Part shown: positions 38,196 to 40,340 of the stretch, piece after piece | Layout of the letters: every line of letters starts with the position of its first letter | Position numbering within the stretch: position 1 is the first letter of the stretch | From: Halobacteriales archaeon YIM A00013 | GTDB taxonomy: Archaea; Halobacteriota; Halobacteria; Halobacteriales; Haloarculaceae | NCBI GenBank assembly: GCA_025041195.1 | Contig: JAKCFM010000001.1 | Location: 248,001 to 312,000, forward strand | DNA: 64,000 nucleotides | Direction: 5' to 3' | Position numbers and translations under genes: made by a program | The notes under the pieces: model-generated | What the model was told of the DNA's origin: nothing | Database searches by the model: none | Seen by the model: the letters and a program-made list of their open reading frames with translations, nothing else

Positions 38196-38225
38196 ACGGG
38201 GGACAAGTCGATCTACAGCCAACTG
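38106..38225 (-). repeat. Degenerate, split copy of the tRNA-Tyr 3' half
   Basis: On the minus strand, 38225-38196 repeats the anticodon-loop to T-stem part of the adjacent tRNA-Tyr: 23 bases identical, 30 with two mismatches. About 75 bases of repeat-like spacer (38122-38195) follow, then 38121-38106 resumes with TTCAAATCGGAGAGT, close to the T-loop and acceptor end. The two pieces join at the place where the real tRNA runs on from T-stem to T-loop. This looks like a tandem 3'-half duplication later interrupted. Confidence 0.55.
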
Positions 38226-38245: not shown

Positions 38246-38319
38246 TCCACTCTCCCCGATTTGAACGGGGGACAAGTCGATCTACAGTCGACTGCTCTGC
38301 CAGACTGAGCTAAGAGCGG
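38246..38319 (-). tRNA. tRNA-Tyr (GTA)
   Basis: A 74-base tRNA on the minus strand. Acceptor CCGCTCT pairs with AGAGTGG (one G-T wobble), with discriminator A at 38246. The D arm reads TAGCTCAGTCTGGCAGAGCA, the anticodon loop is CTGTAGA (anticodon GTA) in the stem TCGA/TCGA, and the T arm is CCCCGTTCAAATCGGGG. No CCA is encoded and no intron is present. Confidence 0.95.
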
Positions 38320-38836
38320 TATCATCTCGTATGGCAATCCACAATTTAACCCTTTCCCTTCATCAGCGTTGAGTCACTCGGTTTCACACACCATTCAACC
38401 CAATTCCACATTCATACACTCTACCAACAGATCTCGGCTCAGTACGCGTTAACACCAGCACTCCCACCAATCGGTCCTACATACCGGAATCCCGTCGACG
38501 ATCATGGGTGGGACAGACAGTGTAAGACGCGTAGTACGGATACACCATCTCCTAAAAAAGAGCCGATTACACCATACATCTCATCGTATCCCCGTAAACC
38601 ACCGTATAAGACGTTTTTACGGCAAATCTGGCGAGGATGCCCATCATTAGATTCGACAAAATAATCGAACTAATTTGGAATTTTTGGCCACAATAGAGGC
38701 TCTACACACAGAATTCGAGAAATACGAAACAAATCCGTCTACACTAAATCTCTGTAAACGCAAATTTGCCGGGATAGATGGCCTCAATTCTGTGTTCCGT
38801 GCTGAGTTTTCACTCGTGTCATACACAGGGCAAAGA

Positions 38837-38845
38837 TTTATTATA
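38837..38845 (+). promoter_or_regulatory. TATA-like box of the cdrS-ftsZ2 transcript
   Basis: TTTATTATA, 24 bases before the GTAAGACG palindrome and 150 bases before the cdrS ATG. Its position would put the transcription start at or just inside the palindrome. Confidence 0.45.
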
Positions 38846-38868
38846 CCGGCGATAATGCACTCACCTGC

Positions 38869-38886
38869 GTAAGACGAACGTCTTAC
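38869..38886. promoter_or_regulatory. GTAAGACG-AA-CGTCTTAC palindrome, likely operator
   Basis: Two perfect 8-base arms separated by AA, the kind of site bound by a ribbon-helix-helix dimer pair. Further arms lie at 38522-38529, 38606-38613 (one mismatch), 38936-38943 and, inverted, 38970-38977, the last ending 17 bases before the cdrS ATG. The adjacent gene encodes an RHH protein, so autoregulation is the natural reading; no binding data were consulted. Confidence 0.55.
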
Positions 38887-38994
38887 ACGGCAGTGCGTGC
38901 GTAGAAAACCGGTCGGATGCTGGCGATTTCGTCGTGTAAGACGCCCGGCGGAACGCTGTCCGCCCACTACGTCTTACCGGAAAAGGGGAAAATC

Positions 38995-39174
38995 ATGGAG
39001 CGTGTGACACTACGGATTCCAAAACAACAGATCGAAGCAGTTGAACAACTGGTCGAGACGGGTGAGTTTCCCAACCGGAGCGAAGCGATTCGGTCGGCGG
39101 TCAGGGAAATGATCAACGAGGAAGACCCAGAGCGCAACCGACGAGAGTCCAAGCGTCAGTGGGCGCGTGTGTGA
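38995..39174 (+). CDS. cdrS: CdrS, short ribbon-helix-helix cell-division regulator
   Basis: A 59-residue CopG-type protein. [20 protein letters not shown] is the DNA-binding strand and first helix, and [16 protein letters not shown] is the second helix; the tail is charged. In haloarchaea the RHH protein CdrS is encoded directly before ftsZ2 and controls its expression, and that arrangement is present here: the ftsZ2 ATG begins two bases after the CdrS stop. I start at 38995 because the RHH strand then begins at residue 2; the frame is open from 38917. Confidence 0.92.
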
Positions 39175-39176
39175 CG

Positions 39177-40340
39177 ATGCAAGACCTCGTCAACGATGCG
39201 CTCGAACACGCCGAAGCTGAAGAACGCAAGGCGGCCAACGTCGAAAATATCGACGAATTCGGCGATCCTCGGATCGTCGTGGTCGGCTGTGGCGGTGCCG
39301 GTAACAATACGGTAAACCGGCTCTACAACATCGGCGTTGAAGGCGCAGACACGGTTGCGATCAACACCGACAAACAGCACCTGCAGATGATAGAAGCCGA
39401 TACCAAGGTGCTCGTCGGAAAGTCGCTCACACAGGGTCTCGGTGCCGGCGGTGACCCTGCGATGGGCGAACGTGCAACGGAGATGGCTCGTGGAACGATC
39501 AAAGAAGTGCTTAGCGGTGCAGATCTGGTTTTCGTTACTGCCGGCATGGGCGGCGGAACGGGAACCGGTGCTGCACCCGTGATCTCAAAACTGGCCAAAG
39601 AACTCGGTGCGATCGTAGTGGGCATGGTGTCGACGCCGTTTAACGTCGAACGCGCCCGCACGGTCAAAGCCGAGGAAGGCCTCGAACAACTCCGAAATGA
39701 GGCCGACTCGATCATCGTTCTCGACAACAACCGCCTGCTGGATTACGTCCCGAATCTCCCAATCGGCAAGGCGTTCTCGGTGATGGATCAGATCATCGCC
39801 GAAACAGTCAAAGGGATTTCTGAGACGATCACCCAGCCATCGCTGATCAACCTTGATTATGCGGATATGACCGCCATCATGGGTCAAGGCGGTGTGGCTG
39901 TCATGCTGGTTGGAGAGACACAAGACAAAAACAAAACCGAAGAAGTGGTTCGCGATGCGATGAGCCATCCGCTGTTAGATGTGGATTATCGAGGCGCAAC
40001 GGGCGGACTCGTCCACATCACTGGCGGTCCGGATCTGACGCTCAAAGAAGCCGAGGGCATCGCACAGCGAATCACCGAACGCCTCGAAGCCGATGCGAAC
40101 GTTATCTGGGGCGCTCGAATCCAACAGGAGTACAAGGGCAAGGTCCGCGTGATGGCGATCATGACCGGCGTCCAGAGCGCACAGATTCTCGGCCCAACCA
40201 CCCAGAAACAGGCCGACGCATCTCGCCGTGCAGCACTCGACCGGGTCGATACGGACGCCGAATCGGCATATGGGAGCGCCCAGTCCGACGGAGGGCAGGA
40301 CTCGATCGAGAAAAACAACGGTCTCGACGTTATTCGGTGA
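39177..40340 (+). CDS. ftsZ2: Cell-division tubulin FtsZ2
   Basis: A 387-residue GTP-dependent cytoskeletal protein of the division ring. The tubulin signature GGGTGTG is at 125-131, preceded by [20 protein letters not shown] near residues 34-53 and followed by the T7-loop region (about 215-235). The N-terminus [20 protein letters not shown] and the body [10 protein letters not shown]-type segments match the FtsZ2 rather than FtsZ1 pattern. The C-terminal tail ends GLDVIR. The start at 39177 follows the CdrS stop; an upstream in-frame ATG at 39159 lies inside cdrS. Translational coupling with cdrS is likely. Confidence 0.95.

Follow-up and report, generated by a model that had tools for sequence, protein, structure and literature searches.

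What is the repeated element in front of the cell division genes cdrS and ftsZ2 of the Halobacteriales archaeon YIM A00013, and which protein reads it? Few transcription regulators have been linked to archaeal cell division, and CdrS and CdrL are two of them. In the window (the whole stretch of 64,000 nucleotides that was analysed), cdrS is an open reading frame for a 59-aa ribbon-helix-helix (RHH) protein with an RHH_1 match above the cut-off (38995–39174, + strand), and it is followed by the open reading frame of ftsZ2 (39177–40340, + strand). A cdrS ortholog is present in 114 of 116 genomes of the family, in a few of them by weak matches only, and CdrS has relatives among the structures of NikR and CopG/Arc/MetJ. 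Upstream of the two genes is tRNA-Tyr (38246–38319, − strand); a 30-base partial copy of its 3′ part at 38196–38225, ~20 bp from the gene, is perhaps an old attachment site.

An initial annotation of this DNA had noted an array of GTAAGACG before cdrS-ftsZ2, and this array is not a product of chance. When the whole window is searched on either strand, exact copies are found at 38522, 38869, 38879 (− strand), 38936 and 38970 (− strand) and nowhere else, and the half-site at 38606–38613 (+ strand), ATAAGACG, has one mismatch and is kept in the sister species (L041). Shuffled sequences lead one to expect a mean of 1.46 copies per window, and the probability of five exact copies in 456 bp is ~1e-12 (Poisson); among 150 Markov-simulated windows, no stretch of 456 bp held more than two copies. 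The AA-spaced palindrome that had been described about 24 bases past a TATA-like box was also recovered. It occupies 38869–38886 as a perfect palindrome, GTAAGACG-AA-CGTCTTAC, 24 nt past the box TTTATTAT (38837–38844), and can be written as two inverted 7-bp half-sites with a 4-bp spacer, GTAAGAC-GAAC-GTCTTAC. This core, termed O2, is the sole match of its quality in the 3.73-Mb genome, the runner-up having two mismatches.

The GTAAGAC palindrome is not specific to the species of the window. Each of seven genomes of the same genus has exactly one copy, and the 18-bp form, with at most one mismatch, is found in 222 of 293 genomes of the order, mostly as a single copy, while a control search with the reversed pattern is nearly empty. 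The 71 genomes that lack the 18-bp form could be mistaken for cases of loss, but most of the loci fetched from them are spacer variants: the cdrS loci read from 29 such genomes mostly show these half-sites 2 or 5 bp apart or are other variants. GTAAGAC-N(2,4,5)-GTCTTAC precedes cdrS-ftsZ2 in 105 of 110 haloarchaeal loci, with a spacer of 4 bp in 75, 5 bp in 25 and 2 bp in 5. In 80 named ftsZ2 loci of other haloarchaea, the palindrome is mostly found some 110–150 bp ahead of the cdrS start, and the Halobacterium genomes sampled carry it. Its absence from orthologous cdrS promoters had been set beforehand as the finding that would speak against an operator; its presence in 105 of the 110 promoters lends good support to the putative operator cluster of the initial annotation.

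The position of O2 relative to the promoter is conserved as well. In the window, a BRE/TATA-like promoter, GCAAAGA-TTTATTAT, lies at 38830–38844 (+ strand). The TATA–O2 distance is fixed in 70 loci, in which TTTA occurs at −32 to −29 of O2 with 79–97% conservation per column. Archaeal transcription starts ~25 bp after the TATA box. Because of this spacing, the start is predicted to coincide with the first bases of O2 and would then be covered by whatever binds the palindrome. Upstream, a half-site is found 40–80 bp before O2 in 91 of the 110 loci, most commonly at −51 to −53. This half-site (U1; GTCATAC at 38818–38824 in the window) is conserved in position and lies just upstream of BRE/TATA, as an activator would. 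It is the only element of the array that shares this feature with the CdrS-type operator of ftsZ1, O2 being located downstream of the TATA box, and its distance to TATA is 12–14 nt, as compared with 10–12 nt for the ftsZ1 site.

Two further half-sites lie downstream of O2. D1 (GTAAGACG, 38936–38943, + strand), in the predicted 5′ UTR, is weakly conserved (53/110 loci) and carries a mutation in L041, where it reads GTAGGACG, whereas D2 (CGTCTTAC, 38970–38977, − strand) is strongly conserved, GTCTTAC being found some 22–28 nt before the cdrS start in 104/110 loci, 54 of which have no D1. The spacing of D2 is nearly fixed relative to the start codon of cdrS (22–28 nt) and not to O2; a role in the promoter alone would not explain this. 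Cooperative switching, as initially envisaged, is speculation, considering that the core spacer may be 2, 4 or 5 bp and that several of the half-sites are single and lack fixed spacing.

If transcription starts at the predicted position, O2 itself is transcribed, and the repeats could act in RNA, with O2 and D1–D2 hairpins in the 5′ UTR of cdrS-ftsZ2 controlling stability or translation. A predicted fold does pair both arms of O2, and D1 with D2, and ftsZ2 of Hbt. salinarum may, according to published data, be controlled after transcription (PMC8303175), which would suit such a mechanism. However, the fold is no stronger than those of shuffled sequences (z = −0.67), and compensatory changes are absent, all seven pairs between the arms being the same in 105 of 110 loci. 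In L186 and L201, an arm is swapped for GTATGAC or GTCATAC, so that the pairing is broken and the half-site code of ftsZ1 is kept. The 54 loci that keep D2 without D1, the location of U1 upstream of TATA and the occurrence of half-sites within cdrL and at ftsZ1 also argue against RNA. Given the fold score, the lack of compensatory changes and the pairing-breaking exceptions, hairpins are rejected as the main explanation, and control through RNA structure is regarded as very improbable.

A DNA-level role is also suggested by the half-sites farther upstream. In most relatives, cdrL, which encodes an RHH protein with a double zinc ribbon, is situated directly upstream of the locus, and half-sites 280–330 bp upstream of O2 fall within its coding sequence, in a poorly conserved linker. 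In this linker, 74 of 81 KT dipeptides are encoded by NGT-AAG-ACR, and CGT encodes the Arg preceding KT in 66 of 67 instances, as compared with 94 of the 554 remaining Arg residues of the linker; all KT dipeptides were counted, since counting at matched half-sites only would be circular. This codon bias indicates that the embedded half-site is under selection at the DNA level. The half-site is a clear case in which the choice of amino acids, here in the CdrL linker, seems to be set by DNA binding and not by the function of the protein.

The window genome and L041 lack cdrL at the locus, and profile and protein searches found it nowhere else in either genome. In other Halocatena, cdrL sits between tRNA-Tyr and cdrS; in the window genome, tRNA-Tyr is much closer to cdrS. 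The sequence CAGTGTAAGACGCGT at 38518–38532 equals the codons for the QCKTR linker residues of the cdrL gene at L043, at an equivalent distance, and is part of a block that is also conserved in L041. Because of this identity, the upstream copy of GTAAGACG (38522–38529, + strand) is probably a remnant of the half-site embedded in the lost cdrL. A non-coding block of ~40 bp (38507–38546) is identical in L041 despite diverged neighbours, and a nearby run, CTAAAAAAGAGCCG, is kept too. U1, the cdrL counterpart of the 38522 copy, the missing cdrL and the class-wide conservation all extend the initial annotation.

The loss of cdrL bears directly on the identity of the binding protein. ChIP in Hbt. 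salinarum located CdrL-FLAG exclusively upstream of cdrS-ftsZ2 (PMC7439475); O2 lies in this upstream region, a match of regions and not of peak to palindrome. In Hfx. volcanii, ChIP of CdrS identified 18 sites, one of them 50 nt before the ftsZ1 TSS, and CdrS depletion lowers ftsZ1 expression; its own cdrS-ftsZ2 promoter is not among the 18 sites (PMC8406309), the O2 status of this species lying outside the loci compared here. The name of the construct in that experiment, HVO_0582NFlag, suggests that the FLAG tag was N-terminal, where it would be adjacent to the strand that contacts DNA. The ChIP data would be accounted for if the palindrome were a dedicated CdrL operator to which CdrS does not bind, and which in genomes without cdrL survives as a relic or serves some other RHH protein. 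A palindrome that is nearly unique in each genome is what a single-target regulator would have, and two lineages, L089/L207 and L202, pair a degenerate O2 with no detected CdrL.

On the other hand, strict co-occurrence of O2 with cdrL fails. O2 is retained in about six lineages or genera in which cdrL was not detected, with ten genomes confirmed at cdrS: the window genome, L041, L048 and L085, in all of which O2 is exact, and G011, G065, G084, G131, G157 and G213. Profile or protein searches did not find cdrL in L048 and L085, and in the six latter genomes the best E-values were 5e-6 or worse, as compared with 1e-24 or below for clear matches. The assemblies are 93–99% complete where completeness was counted, L041, L048 and L085 being without a stated value, and the independence of the losses was judged by genus, so that L048 and L085 may share genera already counted. 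Three more genomes without a clear cdrL match (G144, G156 and G211) have one palindrome each somewhere in the genome. A relic should decay, yet the half-sites of U1, O2 and D2 are unchanged between the window and L041, with many differing bases around O2. As for another RHH protein in this role, the window genome has several, but none of its readable RHH matches resembles CdrL in having a KITFRA strand. The genomes without detected cdrL weaken CdrL as the sole reason for the site, and an operator dedicated to CdrL is considered rather unlikely.

Since O2 is kept without cdrL, CdrS is taken here as the binder common to all genomes, with CdrL as an additional one where it is present, an assignment that is plausible on comparative grounds and unproven. 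The residues of the DNA-facing strand are nearly alike, K-T-R in CdrL, a second RHH protein, versus R-T-R in CdrS. The autoregulation by CdrS that had been proposed initially is plausible in view of the retention of the array without cdrL and of a sister palindrome at ftsZ1, where CdrS binds in Haloferax; it is unproven, as ChIP of CdrS misses its own promoter (PMC8406309) and CdrL binds there (PMC7439475).

The ftsZ1 promoters of 28 genomes of the family contain GTCWGAC-N4-GTCWGAC, in 26 cases within one mismatch, 10–12 nt upstream of TATA and ~62–66 bp upstream of the ftsZ1 start (loci L149–L178). In the window genome, the site is GTCTGACACACGTCATAC (G000:C1:217109–217126), and GTAAGACG does not occur near ftsZ1. 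By its position, this palindrome is likely to be the site at which ChIP located CdrS in Haloferax. Its half-sites include GTATGAC/GTCATAC; in the ftsZ1 palindrome of Halocatena the second half is GTCATAC, the same as U1 of the window. O2, with AA at positions 3–4, fits GTMWGAC and not the majority form GTCWGAC. The occurrence of GTATGAC/GTCATAC at ftsZ1 and as the form of U1 therefore suggests that one code, GTMWGAC, spans both promoters. A search of the window genome for a wider regulon with GTCWGAC-N4-GTCWGAC returned five places, against three in the control, and only the ftsZ1 site stands out, by its conservation. The genome's next-best palindrome after O2, GTAACACGCCCGTATTAC, is found ~55 bp upstream of a further match to an RHH gene (G000:C1:1495955–1496137; L002, L217), a hint of a related locus at which an RHH protein regulates its own gene; sequences resembling this palindrome (GTAATACGTGCGTCTTAC) are present in G130 and G266.

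The ftsZ1 site also bears on whether the array is bound by some other conserved regulator that is unrelated to CdrS and CdrL. Such a protein would explain why CdrS ChIP in Haloferax misses the promoter and why cdrL is dispensable for retention, so that neither known regulator alone accounts for all the data. The same 7-4-7 geometry with related half-sites at a promoter known for CdrS binding, together with CdrL ChIP that maps to the same cdrS-ftsZ2 region, makes an unrelated regulator improbable.

Taken together, the array probably acts as double-stranded DNA, as a conserved operator that serves the RHH proteins regulating the division locus: CdrS, plus CdrL where present. The half-site would suit an RHH protein, CdrS matching NikR in sequence. 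The basic unit would be the 7-bp half-site GTAAGAC within the broader code GTMWGAC, each half-site probably being read by one RHH dimer. Archaeal factors that bind upstream of a promoter tend to activate, and those that bind on it or downstream tend to repress (PMC8406309). Occupied U1, just upstream of BRE/TATA, may recruit the basal machinery as at ftsZ1, and occupied O2, over the predicted start, may block initiation; an activating and a repressing position on one promoter could then hold CdrS-FtsZ2 output at a set level, in the manner of a homeostat. CdrL would bind the same array and tune this output under some conditions. Most likely, the conserved core lets the small regulators encoded at the locus balance the dose of FtsZ2.

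Several observations speak against this operator model. The ftsZ1 half-sites, mostly GTCTGAC/GTCAGAC, differ from GTAAGAC at positions 3–4. The near-uniqueness of the GTAAGAC palindrome in each genome would fit a protein with one target, such as CdrL, and contrasts with the many targets of CdrS. A spacer of 2, 4 or 5 bp is unusual for a rigid cooperative dimer–dimer contact, and O2 is degenerate in the two lineages without detected CdrL mentioned above. The full circuit, in which CdrS and CdrL, both RHH proteins, read a single code at activating and repressing positions so as to keep the dose, and in which a half-site in the cdrL frame shapes the CdrL linker, is put forward only tentatively. 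The near-invariant array, with usually one 18-bp copy per genome, makes it possible to aim point mutations precisely in Halobacterium and Haloferax, and could settle which protein binds where and whether feedback holds FtsZ2 dosage. Genomes without cdrL, a Salinarchaeum species being one example, amount to natural mutants in which what CdrS does can be told apart from what CdrL does.

The closest known counterpart is the CdrS site at ftsZ1 of Haloferax (PMC8406309), which is likewise an 18-bp palindrome of 7-4-7 geometry with a GTNNGAC half-site, ~10–14 nt upstream of TATA, where U1 is its counterpart. It differs in that its half-sites are GTCTGAC/GTCAGAC and those of cdrS-ftsZ2 are GTAAGAC, and in that the ftsZ1 sequences examined have neither a second operator on the start nor downstream half-sites. 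The CdrL target of Halobacterium (PMC7439475) is in the same promoter region, and its being the one genomic target resembles the near-single genomic palindrome; in contrast, the array described here persists where cdrL is not found. No operator sequence for the cdrS-ftsZ2 promoter was found in the text of either paper, and no published description of the GTAAGAC array was found, including by a text search for GTAAGAC and archaea, the figures and supplements of PMC8406309 and PMC7439475 lying outside its scope. Among better-characterized RHH proteins, the operators of NikR, CopG, Arc and MetJ are inverted half-sites of similar sequence, that of E. coli NikR being GTATGA-N16-TCATAC (PMC7055735). 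The spacer of 16 bp in the NikR operator contrasts with 2–5 bp in the haloarchaeal array, which, unlike the NikR-type operators, flanks an archaeal TATA/BRE promoter on both sides, and CdrS has no metal-binding domain. RHH regulators with palindromic operators are thus already known as a kind of system; what is new here is the two-sided promoter layout, the near-invariance across the class and the half-site embedded in coding sequence.
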